This document shows, piece after piece, positions 28,329 to 64,000 of a DNA stretch of 64,000 nucleotides. Positions within the stretch are counted from its first letter, which is position 1. Each line of letters begins with the position of its first letter. The translations under genes and the position numbers were made by a program. The stretch is from Salinicola acroporae (GTDB lineage: Bacteria > Pseudomonadota > Gammaproteobacteria > Pseudomonadales > Halomonadaceae), in the NCBI RefSeq assembly GCF_003206615.1, contig NZ_PZJW01000015.1, forward strand, positions 1 through 64,000. The letters are read 5' to 3'. The notes below the pieces were generated by a model that saw only the letters and a program-made list of their open reading frames with translations, was not told the DNA's origin and searched no databases.

Positions 28329-30637
<2,309 letters not shown>

Positions 30638-60246: not shown

Positions 60247-60744
60247 TCACGCTGACAGACGCTGCAGCGGCTGATCCTCCAGCCGGTTTGCCAGACACCC
60301 TGGTAGCTCGCCGCCGAGGGAGAGTGTTGGCGCGATTTCCGCCAGGGGTTCGAGCACGAAGCGGCGGTGAATCATCTCCGGATGAGGCAGGGTGAGGCGA
60401 GGGAAGCGGCAGTTGAGGCCGGCGAACCACAGGAGATCCAGATCCAGCGTGCGAGGTCCCCAGTGACGGTGCCGTACACGACGATGGCGTTGCTCGATCG
60501 CCTGAAGCTGGTCGAGCAGTGCCAGCGGTGAGAGTCGCGTACGAACGGCGACGACGGCGTTGATGAAGTCGGGTTGATCCTGAGGGCCGACCGGCGCGCT
60601 GGCGTAGAGCGAGGAGGCGGCAACGCGCTCGCTCACCGGTAGCGCCGCCAGCGACGCCATGGCCCGTGCCAGTTGGTCACGGGGCGACGCCAGGTTACTG
60701 CCCAGACCGATATAGGCCAGGGCGGAGTGTCGATGGTCAGTCAT
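60247..60744 (-). CDS. folK: 6-hydroxymethyl-dihydropterin pyrophosphokinase
   Basis: A 165-residue enzyme from ATG 60744 (MTDHRHSALAYIGLGSNLASPRDQ), which overlaps the pcnB stop by eight bases. FolK motifs are GLGSNL, DFINAVVAV and the signature RHWGPRTLDLDLLWF (about residues 94-107) with the magnesium aspartates, then HPEMIHRRFVLEPLAEIAP. It transfers pyrophosphate from ATP to 6-hydroxymethyl-7,8-dihydropterin in folate synthesis. Longer frames upstream belong to pcnB sequence in another frame. Confidence 0.96.
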   Translation of the reverse strand: MTDHRHSALAYIGLGSNLASPRDQLARAMASLAALPVSERVAASSLYASAPVGPQDQPDFINAVVAVRTRLSPLALLDQLQAIEQRHRRVRHRHWGPRTLDLDLLWFAGLNCRFPRLTLPHPEMIHRRFVLEPLAEIAPTLSLGGELPGCLANRLEDQPLQRLSA

Positions 60745-62167
60745 CCAGCGTCGGCGGTGTCGGCTTGTTGGTCGGCCGCCGACGCTTGCGTGGACGACGA
60801 CGGCGTGGCTTGGGGCTGGTCCCCGCCGGGTTGCTGCCGGCATCGTTGGCGAGTAGCTGGCGCTGCCCCTCCTCATCCGCCTGCTGGAACTCGGTCCACC
60901 AGCTACCCAGGCCCGGGGACAGCTCGCCAGCTTCCTCGCGCAGCAGCAGGAAGTCGTAGGCGGCGCGGAAACGCGGATGTTCCAGTGTCTGGAAGACCCG
61001 ACGGCCGCGTCGGCGCGGGAGTTGCTGCTGGAGGTCCCAGATCTCGCGCATCGGGATGCTGAAACGCTTGGGTATCGATGTATGTTGCAACTGACGACTG
61101 ATGACCTGCTGTGCCGCAGCCTGCTGAGCGGGGACCTCCGGCAGGTCCTGTTCGTGGGCGATGCGGGGAGTGCGTTGCTGAACGCAGGGCCACAGCAGGG
61201 CGCCAAACAGGAAGGCCGGCGTGACCGGCCGATCCTGGGCGATCCGCGCATCGGTATTGATCAGCGCCTGCTCGACCAGCTTGACGGCCCAGGGCTGCTC
61301 GTCGAGGACTTCGTCGCTCTCGGGGAACAGCATCGCGAACAGGCCATGATCACGCAGCACCCGGAAGCTCTGCAGCGCGTGCCCAGAGAGAAACAGCTTG
61401 AGCACTTCCTCGAACAGCCTCGCCGGCGGGATCTGGAGCAGTAGCGGGGCCAACTCGCGAATCGGTGCCTCGGTACCTTCGGCAATCCGGAAGTCGAGCT
61501 TGGCGGCGAAGCGTGCGGCGCGCAGCATGCGCACTGGATCCTCGCGATAGCGGGTCTCCGGATCGCCGATCAGGCGAAGCACTCGGTCGTCCAGGTCCTG
61601 GAGACCGCCGGTCCAGTCATGAATGGCGAAGTCGGTCACGCTGTAGTAGAGCGCATTGACGGTGAAGTCGCGCCGGATCGCGTCCTCTTCGACGCTACCC
61701 CAGACGTTGTCCCGCAGCAGCAGGCCCTCGTCCGACTGCTGGCTGTGATTGCCGGCATGTTCCTCACCATGCCGTCCGCGGAAGGTCGTCACCTCGATCA
61801 CTTCGCGCCCGAAGCGGACGTGGACGATCCGGAAGCGTCGGCCGATGATGCGAGAATTGCGAAATAGCTGACGCACCTCGTCCGGCGTCGCATTGGTGGC
61901 GACATCGAAGTCCTTGGGCCGGTTGCCGAGCAGAGAGTCCCGGATGCAACCACCGACCAGGTAGGCGTCGTAACCGGCGCCATTGAGCCGATACAACACC
62001 TTGAGAGCGCTTTCGCTAAGGTTCTGGCGCGAGACGTTGTGTTCGTCGCGGGGAAGGACTTGCGGGGTGGGCGTGGCGTCTTCGGCCGCCTGAGCGGATT
62101 CCGGGCCGAAGAAGGTCTTCAAACGTTCACCGGGACGTTGGAGAAAACGGGAAAATCCTTTGAACAT
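60737..62167 (-). CDS. pcnB: Poly(A) polymerase I
   Basis: About 476 residues from ATG 62167 (MFKGFSRFLQRPGERLKTFF). The class II nucleotidyltransferase motif is YLVGGCIRDSLLGNRPKDFDVATNAT (about residues 75-99), with the DxD metal ligands, then RDFTVNALYY and DPVRMLRAARFAAKLDF. The C-terminus is strongly basic (RRRRPRKRRRP), as in other PcnB proteins, and likely binds RNA. It adds A-tails that promote mRNA decay together with PNPase, encoded 5 kb away. A CrcZ-like RNA gene ends about 200 bases upstream, the same neighbour as in Pseudomonas. Confidence 0.96.
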   Translation of the reverse strand: MFKGFSRFLQRPGERLKTFFGPESAQAAEDATPTPQVLPRDEHNVSRQNLSESALKVLYRLNGAGYDAYLVGGCIRDSLLGNRPKDFDVATNATPDEVRQLFRNSRIIGRRFRIVHVRFGREVIEVTTFRGRHGEEHAGNHSQQSDEGLLLRDNVWGSVEEDAIRRDFTVNALYYSVTDFAIHDWTGGLQDLDDRVLRLIGDPETRYREDPVRMLRAARFAAKLDFRIAEGTEAPIRELAPLLLQIPPARLFEEVLKLFLSGHALQSFRVLRDHGLFAMLFPESDEVLDEQPWAVKLVEQALINTDARIAQDRPVTPAFLFGALLWPCVQQRTPRIAHEQDLPEVPAQQAAAQQVISRQLQHTSIPKRFSIPMREIWDLQQQLPRRRGRRVFQTLEHPRFRAAYDFLLLREEAGELSPGLGSWWTEFQQADEEGQRQLLANDAGSNPAGTSPKPRRRRPRKRRRPTNKPTPPTLDD

Positions 62168-62369
62168 GCGGCGAAATCGACTCGCGAGGTAGCAAAACTC
62201 CAGTGTAGCGGAGGCCAGGGGGCTTGCAAAGGCAATGGCGGGATGAGGGGGCAGAAGACACCGCACGGATCGTTTGGTGCCCGGAGGGGCGTGACCGTAT
62301 CGATATTCGCTGCCAGCTCGGCTCACGGTAAAACGAACGAGGCCGATGGGAACCTCAAGATGAGAATAG

Positions 62370-62399
62370 TAAAAGGGGAGGCCCGGTGGGCCTCCCCTT
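62370..62399 (-). terminator. Intrinsic terminator of the CrcZ-like RNA
   Basis: On the minus strand AAGGGGAGGCCC pairs perfectly with GGGCCTCCCCTT (12 base pairs, 62373-62399, three-base loop), followed by TTTTACTATT. The T-run fits only minus-strand transcription, so it ends a transcript arriving from the gluQ side and insulates pcnB. Confidence 0.85.
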
Positions 62400-62859
62400 G
62401 CAAGAATGCTTCGCAACGTCCATGCCGCTTCTTCTTGTTCGTGATGGCGCATCGCCTTGAATACGCACCACAGTCGCTGAACGAGCTTGCAGTCACTGGC
62501 TTGTCGTTGTCAGCCATGCTGTGTACAGCGACCACCTCGTATTCAAAACAATAATCCAACCACGACAGGCAATGCCCTTTCCCGGTTGTTGTCGTTGTTC
62601 CGGGAAGTCTCCAGATCACGAGGAAGCTTGTTGTTGTTGCCTCGTTGACGAAGAGCGTCGCGTCCTGATTTTTGCGTCGGCTCGAGGACGATTGTTGTTG
62701 TTCGTGTCCTCGTTCGCCCTGGGCCTGTGTTGTTGTTATGGGGCCGGTGGCGATCTGCCTTCCTAGTTTGAGTGCCGCGTTGTTGTTGTTATCGGCAGTG
62801 GGGCCATTCCGATCGCTATTGTTGTTGGGTTTGATCGGCACCCGCTGTTGTTTTTCTTG
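62370..62859 (-). ncRNA. crcZ: CrcZ-like small RNA (Hfq/Crc-titrating)
   Basis: An inferred ~490-nt minus-strand transcript from about 62859 to the terminator at 62370-62399. Seven CA-rich motifs of the AACAACAA type lie at about 62844-62858, 62815-62828, 62778-62791, 62726-62739, 62690-62705, 62626-62640 and 62584-62603. Most sit in hairpin loops: stems CCGATC/GATCGG, TGCCG/CGGCA, CGAGGAC/GTCCTCG, ACGAGG/CCTCGT and TTCCCGG/CCGGGAA. CrcZ of Pseudomonas is about 400 nt, sits just upstream of pcnB, carries five such motifs and is made from a CbrB-dependent sigma54 promoter. Length, motifs, neighbour, promoter and terminator all agree here. It should sequester Hfq (with Crc) and relieve catabolite repression. 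An Asn-rich open frame through it is an artefact of the AAC repeats. Confidence 0.75.
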
Positions 62860-62869
62860 TCTTAGTTAC

Positions 62870-62885
62870 TGCACTTGCTGTGCCA
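62870..62885 (-). promoter_or_regulatory. Sigma54 (-24/-12) promoter of the CrcZ-like RNA
   Basis: On the minus strand TGGCAC (62885-62880), five bases, then GTGCA (62874-62870). The consensus is TGGCAC-N5-TTGCA, so only one base of the -12 element differs and the spacing is exact. The predicted start, about 12 bases past the GC, is near 62859, immediately before the first CA motif. I did not find a clear CbrB (TGTTAC-N12-GTAACA) site between here and gluQ. Confidence 0.7.
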
Positions 62886-62889
62886 CTCC

Positions 62890-63172
62890 TTATTTTTTTT
62901 AACAAAATCAGCTTCTTGCTGTTTTGGTGTCGTGCCAGTCGCCCTATGGCTGCCGGCATGGGGGAAGCCGGATGATTCATAAGGGGGCATCTGCAGCGCA
63001 TCATGCGTGATTGTGGTGCGCCCCTCTCCGCAATGGCGACAGGGTGGCGCAAAACGGCGCGAGTTTCGCTTAGACAATAGTCTTCAATCGAAGGGAGGGA
63101 CGGCCTCGGCAACACCGGAAGGCAGGCTTGACGTCAGCCGGGAGATGGCGGGAGACCCTGCCGGCAAGGGCG
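62890..63172. other. Upstream region of the CrcZ-like RNA, 3' of gluQ
   Basis: It contains an imperfect hairpin (CAAAA and CAGC at about 62903-62912 pairing with GCTG and TTTTG at about 62918-62926) that may end the gluQ transcript, and otherwise no convincing gene. Here a sigma54 activator such as CbrB would have to bind. Short minus-strand frames beginning near 63077 or 63115 lack clear start signals. Confidence 0.4.
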
Positions 63173-64000
63173 TCAGTCATGCCTCCGGCCTGGGGTGGCA
63201 ACCATCGTTTCGGGGGACCAGTGCGCGAGGGCGTGCGCCAACTGAGAGGTCACTTCCGCCTGGCGCAGTGCGGCCGGGGGCGCCTGACCCAGCAGTTGCA
63301 GCGCCTGATGGAGAACGGGGCGAGCCGGAGCCTCATCGTGGGGAATGGCGGTCGCGAGATTCTGCTTGGAGAGTTTCTGGCCATCCTCGCCGAGGACCAG
63401 CGGCAGATGCAGATAGCGTGGTTCAGGATAGTTCAGGGCGACCTGGAGTTGTCGTTGCCACGGAGTATTGTCGAGCAGATCGAAGCCGCGGACGATGTCG
63501 GTAATGCCCTGCGCCGCGTCGTCGACCACCACCGCGAGCTGATAGGCCCAGAGACCATCCTTGCGTTTGAGTACCACGTCGCCCTGGGCAGTCGGGTCCA
63601 GACATTGGCTCCCGAACAGGCGGTCTTGCCAGCACACCGGCTGGATGCCCTTGTCGGTTCGTAGCCGCCATGCCTGCGCGCGTTCGGGGTGGCGCGAGCC
63701 ATGGCGGCACCATCCCGGGTAGTGGCCGTGCTGTTGCCATTCGCGTCGCGAACAGCCGCAAGGGTAGGCCATCCGATCGGCGACCAGACGGTCCAGTGCG
63801 GCCTGATAAGCGGCTCCCCGGTCGCTCTGGTGGCGAATCTCCCCATCCCATTCCAGCCCGAACGCTTCCAACTGGCGGTAAATCTGATCGATGGCACCGG
63901 GAGGACAGCGTGGCGGGTCGATATCCTCGATGCGCAGCAGCCAGTGGCCGCCGGCTGCTCTGGCATCCAGCCAGCTGCCCAGGGCCGCCACCAGGGAGCC
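63173..64000 (-). CDS. gluQ: Glutamyl-Q tRNA(Asp) synthetase (partial, 5' end outside the window)
   Basis: About 275 C-terminal residues; the frame is open to the window edge, so the APSPTG-type N-terminal signature lies outside. Visible are [15 protein letters not shown], the family core [12 protein letters not shown], the zinc-binding PCGCSRREW...GWCRHG cysteines, [22 protein letters not shown] and the KMSKS-like [12 protein letters not shown]. It lacks the anticodon-binding domain of true glutamyl-tRNA synthetase, and charges glutamate onto queuosine of tRNA-Asp. In pseudomonads gluQ lies upstream of cbrAB, crcZ and pcnB; here cbrAB do not intervene. Confidence 0.92.

Follow-up and report, generated by a model that had tools for sequence, protein, structure and literature searches.

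The RNA locus between gluQRS and pcnB

The segment under study lies on the minus strand between gluQRS and pcnB, in a window of 64 kb (the whole stretch of DNA analysed here). Downstream of it come PcnB, FolK and PanB and, judged by eye, a PanC-like open reading frame after panB. The genome is of Halomonadaceae type, as the initial annotation had proposed, and its genus is Salinicola or a very near relative; the PcnB of the window is 97–99% identical to that of the nearest genomes of the same genus and 94% identical to that of Salinicola salarius. A long open reading frame that would carry pcnB upstream into the RNA is very probably spurious: aligned with its relatives, PcnB begins at 62167. 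The main features of the locus are as follows.

63173-64000 and beyond, minus strand: gluQRS, the upstream neighbour (GluQRS homology)
62906..62918, minus strand: IHF-like site CAAGAAGCTGATT, between enhancer and promoter (conserved alignment columns, matched to the IHF consensus)
62870..62885, minus strand: sigma54 (-24/-12) promoter TGGCACAGCAAGTGCA (pattern match and conservation)
62370..62859, minus strand: predicted CrcZ-like RNA of ~490 nt, from the sigma54 start point to the terminator (promoter spacing, terminator, fold, family architecture)
62373..62399, minus strand: intrinsic terminator, a 12-bp stem (9 GC) followed by the T-run TTTTACTATT (stem search)
60737..62167, minus strand: pcnB, the conserved downstream neighbour (PcnB homology, start from the alignment of relatives)

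The promoter element, TGGCAC-N5-GTGCA, is of the sigma54 type, with the correct GG-N10-GC spacing and one mismatch to TGGCACRNNNNTTGCW. Eleven matches with at most two mismatches occur in the 64 kb against a mean of 17 in shuffled sequence, so the match alone is within chance; the element at 62885-62870 is the only one with a single mismatch. Its weight comes from its conservation among relatives, since TGGCA[CT]-N6-TGC is kept in the 28 aligned family loci. When the 500-nt strand was folded, the predicted structure had a z-score of -5.2, and none of 100 shuffles was as stable.

All eight exact matches to AACAACAA in the 64-kb window are found at 62628-62826 on the minus strand. The chance expectation for the window is 0.41, and none of 100 shuffles reached eight. 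Counting uninterrupted A-R-N runs of at least 8 nt, the predicted transcript contains seven, plus one imperfect loop, and it thereby carries multiple A-rich motifs of the kind that fit the distal face of Hfq.

62845..62858, minus strand: A-rich run 1 at the 5' end, AAGAAAAACAACAG, strongly conserved across the family (run count, alignment)
62819..62826, minus strand: A-rich loop 2, AACAACAA (motif match)
62780..62790, minus strand: A-rich loop 3, AACAACAACAA (motif match)
62730..62737, minus strand: A-rich loop 4, AACAACAA (motif match)
62692..62702, minus strand: A-rich loop 5, on a stem with compensatory changes, helix 2 (motif match, covariation)
62628..62638, minus strand: A-rich loop 6, on a stem with compensatory changes, helix 5 (motif match, covariation)
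62586..62599, minus strand: imperfect A-rich loop AACAACGACAACAA on a CCCGG hairpin with compensatory changes, helix 6 (covariation)
62429..62439, minus strand: 3' A-rich run AACAAGAAGAA (run count)

The number of uninterrupted runs goes down to 4–5 in some Salinicola RNAs (L021, L018). The five signals named in the initial annotation, a sigma54 promoter, a length of ~490 nt, seven A-rich runs, a 12-bp terminator and the pcnB neighbour, are all real.

Conservation and covariation in the family

The family sampled (f1) comprises 201 genomes from 24 genera and is wider than the classical Halomonadaceae; a PcnB tree puts some of these genera together with Oceanospirillum and Marinospirillum. The promoter pattern [TC]GGCA[CT]-N6-[TG]GC followed by an A-rich array before pcnB was found in 48 of 50 family loci, the window's own included (47 of the 49 others). 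The two loci that lack a match to the promoter pattern, both of genus g21, carry the array. Alignment of the loci shows strong conservation at the 5' end (CAAGAAAAACAA) and a shared 3' core, both halves of which were recovered in 65 of 68 loci with a fuzzy pattern.

62406..62565, minus strand: family-specific 3' core, a long near-invariant stem (AUUGUUUUGAAUACG with CGUAUUCAAGGCGAU) and a distal hairpin (alignment, covariance model R1)

Pairing in the core was analysed in 43 of the 65 core-bearing loci (40 distinct). Its 31 pairs are formed in 98.7% of cells, and six of them are changed on both sides. Four of five pairing measures exceeded all 500 shuffles, the fifth was reached by 3 of 500, and every slid version of the pairing scored lower. 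In helix 3 of the core, 12 of 15 pairs never vary; most of the long stem is thus neutral on pairing, speaking neither for nor against it. The 5' half was compared among 17 Salinicola loci, and compensatory changes were seen in 9 of 29 pairs, mostly in the stems that present the A-rich loops. Here the paired cells, double-changed cells and covariation exceeded 500 of 500 shuffles; the number of compensatory pairs was reached by 18 of 500 and the number of pair types by 267 of 500. A lack of conserved motifs and stems in related genomes, which would have spoken against the initial annotation, was thus not what we found: both are conserved in the family, with covariation.

A base-pairing small RNA or structured scaffold would explain the near-invariance of the 3'-core stem, which goes beyond what pairing alone needs. 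In such an RNA the invariant core would be the working part, and the A-rich loops would only recruit Hfq. The number of A-rich loops, however, is kept while their stems change in a compensatory way, as expected for repeated protein sites, and we regard this explanation as improbable. That the motifs merely coincide by chance in an intergenic region deserves almost no credence. The sigma54 match by itself would allow it, but the A-rich array, the z-score of the fold, the conservation and the covariation all argue against it. We dismissed a short conserved open reading frame in the 3' core (ATGCGCCATCACGAA...): its start codon is lost in L042 and L043 with the hairpin kept, and its second codon is altered in several sequences.

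Relation to CrcZ and wider distribution

At the Rfam gathering score, no model matches anywhere in the window. The CrcZ model RF01675 reaches at best 11.8 bits in the window against a cut-off of 95, whereas the Pseudomonas loci used as positive controls (L113 and L134) score 330 and 328 bits. It also finds no match in 16 other loci tested, most of which have the same architecture. Weak Rfam hits to mir-564, guanidine-III and the TMV pseudoknot were taken as chance. This limits the naming of the RNA as a member of RF01675, not the functional claim. Our covariance model of the core, R1, scores 150 bits at the RNA, its sole match in this genome, and an order-wide search with strict filters found it in 18 of 390 genomes, all of them from the window's family. 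Of the covariance searches suggested in the initial annotation, the one with the Rfam CrcZ model finds Pseudomonas but not this RNA, and the one with a model of the family's core detects family genomes. Because the R1 matches all fall in the window's family, the core looks family-specific, and homology beyond the family therefore rests on synteny, the promoter, the A-rich array and CbrAB.

The synteny is clear. The gene order is gluQ-cbrA-cbrB-RNA-pcnB in G010 and G021 and cbrA-cbrB-RNA-pcnB in G020, and homologues of CbrB and CbrA precede the RNA in Pseudomonas as well. With the protein encoded next to Pseudomonas crcZ, the CbrB of G010 shares 63% identity, against ~42% for Salinicola NtrC. 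The order cbrA-cbrB-RNA-pcnB identifies the segment as the CrcZ locus. Salinicola keeps the place downstream of gluQ and upstream of pcnB, with cbrAB missing, so that gluQ directly adjoins the RNA. Taken together with the promoter, the A-rich array and the terminator, all three of them conserved, the synteny bears out the proposal of a CrcZ-type RNA, and the stretch very probably encodes a CrcZ-like decoy that would free carbon-use genes from the Hfq/Crc repressor.

Like CrcZ (RF01675), the RNA is located between cbrB/gluQ and pcnB, with a sigma54 promoter, an IHF-like site, several A-rich Hfq-type motifs, a GC-rich terminator and, by eye, a U-rich/CAAAG-type stem. It differs from CrcZ in its greater length (~490 nt), its family-specific 3' core, its NtrC-like enhancer and the lack of CbrB in the genome. 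CrcX of Pseudomonas is a decoy of the same kind as CrcZ. CrcY is another (PMC6292655); unlike the Salinicola RNA, CrcY and CrcX lie at other genomic places, and the core model has a single match in the Salinicola genome. For comparison, CrcZ of PAO1 is described as a 407-nt RNA with six A-rich stretches (PMC4063720), and Pseudomonas crcZ as needing IHF (PMC6296734).

The arrangement extends well beyond the family. Among 80 named pcnB loci, 33 have the promoter with the array behind it (30 with at least five strict motifs, three with 2–4). CbrB and CbrA precede the array in loci of Oceanospirillum, Marinobacter, Amphritea, Gilvimarinus, Cellvibrio, Aestuariicella, Litorirhabdus and Marinospirillum; no match to either was found in L100 and L124, which have little upstream sequence. 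The other 47 loci include Vibrio, Idiomarina-type, Ferrimonas, Dyella/Rhodanobacter and Methylomonas-type bacteria, but also Marinospirillum L096, with 16 motifs and a promoter that the pattern missed, and eight of the 80 have fewer than 900 bases upstream, where an RNA could be missed. The CrcZ-type RNA is thus present in this genome as proposed, yet it is not peculiar to it: members of the family and of related families keep the locus, usually with cbrAB beside it.

A 2022 review names Pseudomonas and Azotobacter as the only genera for which cbrA-cbrB-crcZ is on record and treats CbrAB as exclusive to them, and a marine metatranscriptome paper, in its passages on these genes, describes cbrA/cbrB transcripts in mixed communities without genus assignment. 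The initial annotation was aware of no characterised case in the family; likewise, we found no report of CrcZ in this Halomonadaceae-type family in the open-access literature, to which the search was confined (subscription papers were outside its scope). In Gilvimarinus (L099, L101, L102, L104, L105) the A-rich array is exceptionally dense, with 15–24 strict motifs per 500 bases upstream of pcnB, and lies partly ahead of the sigma54 match.

Loss of CbrB and the remaining sigma54 activators

CbrB (E <= 1e-100) is encoded in 164 of the 201 family genomes and in 17 of the 24 genera, and in the family genomes read it stands beside the RNA as in Pseudomonas. None of the 18 Salinicola genomes has it. 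The rest of the circuit is in place. A Crc homologue (E <= 1e-70) is present in all 201 family genomes; that of this genome lies, by eye, beside a pyrE-like open reading frame. NCBIfam names this homologue exodeoxyribonuclease III, a name also borne by the top PDB match, which stands just ahead of Crc entries. The same genome encodes Hfq and sigma54 (rpoN). Salinicola Hfq (L008 in this genome) has F at position 25, against the distal-face Y of P. aeruginosa Hfq.

Full sigma54 activators number three in this genome, namely GlrR, NtrC (754 bits against a cut-off of 620) and a PAS-type protein beside an agmatinase-like gene. Salinicola G101 has only GlrR and NtrC, its weak long-frame matches being taken as Clp-type AAA proteins. 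With three activators here and two in G101, there are few possible activators for the conserved sigma54 promoter.

Two further genera show other arrangements. In G001 of genus g2 (L061 6334-7806), cbrB is kept beside crcZ with no cbrA at the locus, and the receiver domain of CbrB has diverged; g2 looks intermediate, and this CbrB is possibly kinase-independent. G024 of genus g24 has no A-rich array upstream of pcnB (L218), and its CbrB lies ~119 kb away on the same contig, so its crcZ may have moved with cbrB.

NtrC-like sites replace the CbrB sites

The CbrB subsites described for P. putida are TGTTAC and GTAACA. Both occur upstream in 34 of 34 CbrB-bearing loci of the family. Of 29 CbrB-less loci, only L202 (g15) has TGTTAC, and GTAACA is absent from all of them; the 16 Salinicola loci scored have neither. 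Salinicola instead carries elements of the form TGCACC-N5-nnnGCA near -153 and TGCCCC-N5-nnnnCA near -122.

62973..62989, minus strand: NtrC-like site D, TGCCCCCTTATGAATCA, centred at -122 (position weight matrix, PWM, from glnA promoters)
63004..63020, minus strand: NtrC-like site C, CGCACCACAATCACGCA, centred at -153, 31 bp from site D (PWM from glnA promoters)
63035..63051, minus strand: a weaker third NtrC-like match, TGCGCCACCCTGTCGCC, centred at -184 (its spacing varies among Salinicola)

At the position of site C, CbrB-bearing relatives have the CbrB half-site TGTTAC, and in many of them a TGCACC half-site stands directly ahead of it. Tandem sites of the type TGCACC-N5-GGTGCA are found in the glnA promoters of the family, where 26 of 30 have them at a distance of 31 bp (search range 30–33 bp); by their position and by the enteric consensus we take these to be NtrC sites. 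Salinicola has such tandem sites upstream of the sigma54 promoter of the RNA, with weak right half-sites. The likeness to glnA is in the tandem sites ~31 bp apart upstream of a sigma54 promoter; the difference is that the glnA promoters control glutamine synthetase and that their sites are stronger.

The final PWM was built from glnA promoters of CbrB-bearing genera only, with Salinicola left out, and allowed spacings of 20–22 or 30–32; the first PWM had included Salinicola glnA and allowed only 30–32, and the shorter spacing was admitted after closer sites had been seen in g16 and g18. With the final PWM, the 29 CbrB-less loci (7 genera) score 13.3–33.7, the 34 CbrB-bearing loci -10.9 to 12.9, and 509 genomic windows 11.1 at most. 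The separation is complete, with a narrow margin (13.3 against 12.9); loci within one genus are not independent, and 10 of the 29 CbrB-less loci were added once the NtrC idea existed. If only spacings of 30–32 are allowed, the two loci of g16 drop to 1.6 and 10.0, which leaves 27 of the 29 with scores above every CbrB-bearing locus. Full separation of the groups was achieved by none of 500 scrambled PWMs, and one of the 500 equals the true excess over the genomic windows.

This comparison excludes L012, whose upstream sequence is shorter than 230 bp; the g21 loci L051 and L058, for lack of a promoter match; L218, which has no array; and L042 and L043, which come from the genomes of L201 and L199. 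The CbrB-less genomes outside it are Salinicola G134, where PcnB is matched only weakly, and five g15 genomes out of ten. The highest scores, up to 33.7, belong to loci of g15 and g18 and lie in the range of glnA itself with the same PWM (20.7–38.0). Salinicola is weaker: with the first PWM its sites score 12.6–23.0 against 21.9–38.5 for glnA, and its right half-sites are degenerate. Because inner CbrB-bearing genera carry weaker versions of both NtrC-like elements, an older dual input, or sites of another factor, is possible.

Another sigma54 activator, GlrR or the PAS-type protein, could drive a genuine CrcZ decoy, which would then answer to envelope or arginine/agmatine signals. Both are encoded in this genome, and GlrR also in the three other Salinicola genomes compared (G101, G112, G124). 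The best matches to the GlrR motif TGTC-N10-GACA in the seven Salinicola loci tested all have 2–3 mismatches and stand at inconsistent places; G101 lacks the PAS-type activator and has a conserved crcZ promoter; and the tandem sites resemble those of glnA. We therefore consider control by either protein unlikely, if the most credible of the alternatives.

The upstream region holds one further conserved element, the palindrome GACYATNGTC at 63082-63073 on the minus strand, which reads GACTATTGTC in this genome and GACCATGGTC in many genera and usually precedes a TAA. It lies ~50 bp upstream of site C and is kept whether cbrB or gluQ precedes the RNA.

A proposed nitrogen-controlled decoy

We favour, with a probability of about two in three, the reading that the segment is the Salinicola ortholog of CrcZ, a ~490-nt decoy transcribed from a sigma54 promoter, that the genus has lost CbrB, and that the enhancer of the RNA is now of the NtrC type, placing it under nitrogen control. 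Because the enhancer consists of two tandem NtrC-type sites 31 bp apart, transcription would most likely be triggered by NtrC-P. From the genes and sites present, we infer transcription, binding by NtrC, binding of Hfq/Crc and the physiological effect as follows. Nitrogen shortage would generate NtrC-P, which would bind the tandem sites; IHF would bend the DNA, and sigma54 polymerase would then make the RNA. The A-rich loops would occupy the distal face of Hfq (with Crc), as the A-rich stretches of P. aeruginosa CrcZ are described to do (PMC4063720). Hfq/Crc would thus be drawn from the ribosome-binding sites of catabolic mRNAs, which could then be translated. In Pseudomonas, and probably in most of the family, crcZ is switched on by CbrB, which Salinicola has lost together with the CbrA of the locus; in Salinicola, relief from Hfq/Crc would follow nitrogen and not carbon status. 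The initial annotation called this a carbon-control RNA: the type, CrcZ, holds, but control by carbon is doubtful, with CbrB gone and NtrC-like sites in the place of CbrB-like ones.

A proposed repeated hand-over from CbrAB to NtrBC

Salinicola is not the only CbrB-less lineage. For Salinicola and the group g7/g9/g15–g18, the PcnB tree prefers two losses of CbrAB but does not reject a single one (p-AU 0.26). In addition, G105 of genus g20 has no CbrB, which the other sampled g20 genomes have, and tblastn found no cbrA or cbrB match in the 8.8-kb stretch of its locus (L220). G105 would be a separate loss of cbrAB if its genus label holds. It keeps the RNA with its core, and its promoter reads AGGCACAGACACTGCA, the first base being changed (AGGCAC). 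It has neither TGTTAC nor GTAACA any longer; where many relatives have TGCACCAGTTGTTACCA it has TGCACCAGTTGGTGGCA, and a second site follows 31 bp on. The tandem pair, read by eye and then scored as the thirtieth CbrB-less locus, reaches 14.7. What was a CbrB half-site in this locus is now a better NtrC half-site. G105 thus supports the NtrC reading, and the spacing in g16 weakens it.

A hand-over of this kind has a plausible route. At Pseudomonas hutU, the CbrB site is described as overlapping an NtrC site (PMC8871633); hutU differs from the present locus in that its target is protein-coding and both regulators are present. We lean towards the view that the carbon switch passed repeatedly from CbrAB to NtrBC (in Salinicola, in g7/g9/g15–g18 and in one g20 genome) through ancestral overlapping half-sites, and that CbrAB-CrcZ is old in a wide gammaproteobacterial lineage.

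Alternatively, the sigma54 promoter may be little used, and a constitutive or read-through RNA may serve as a fixed buffer of Hfq without any switch. A processed CrcZ from cbrB-crcZ read-through is described in Azotobacter (PMC6292655), and the changed first promoter base in G105 would suit a promoter of little use. Against this, few parts of the aligned Salinicola upstream regions are as conserved as the -24/-12 element and the upstream blocks, and the search of 62200-63200 for a sigma70-like promoter found none, though only 0.4 was expected there by chance. We consider a decoy of this constitutive kind rather unlikely, and retain the sigma54-dependent, NtrC-controlled CrcZ as the preferred reading.

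Implications and candidate targets

If the preferred reading is true, nitrogen hunger lifts Hfq/Crc repression in these bacteria, a natural rewiring of a global control circuit, and CbrAB-CrcZ is no speciality of Pseudomonas and Azotobacter. With Halomonadaceae-type bacteria, Oceanospirillum, Marinobacter, Cellvibrio and others sharing the arrangement, its range becomes much wider; some bacteria of these groups serve in bioplastic or ectoine production. The CbrB-less genera are a natural experiment, in which the RNA, Crc and Hfq stay and the source of the signal changes. They make it testable whether CrcZ answers carbon supply or the carbon:nitrogen balance.

The suggestion that the RNA is a master switch for the catabolic operons of the window finds no support. 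We scanned 41 genes, called by a crude script, for the motif AAnAAnAA near their starts; the strict motif occurs at two of the 41 called starts, one of them a miscalled pcnB start inside the RNA, and at none of 2050 interior positions. The other belongs to a glycerol-kinase-like FGGY gene (28329-29837, minus strand), whose start reads ATGAGTGACAAGAAGAAG, with AAGAAGAA at nucleotides 10–17. As the only one of the 41 genes with a credible start-proximal AAnAAnAA, it is a candidate target of Hfq/Crc.
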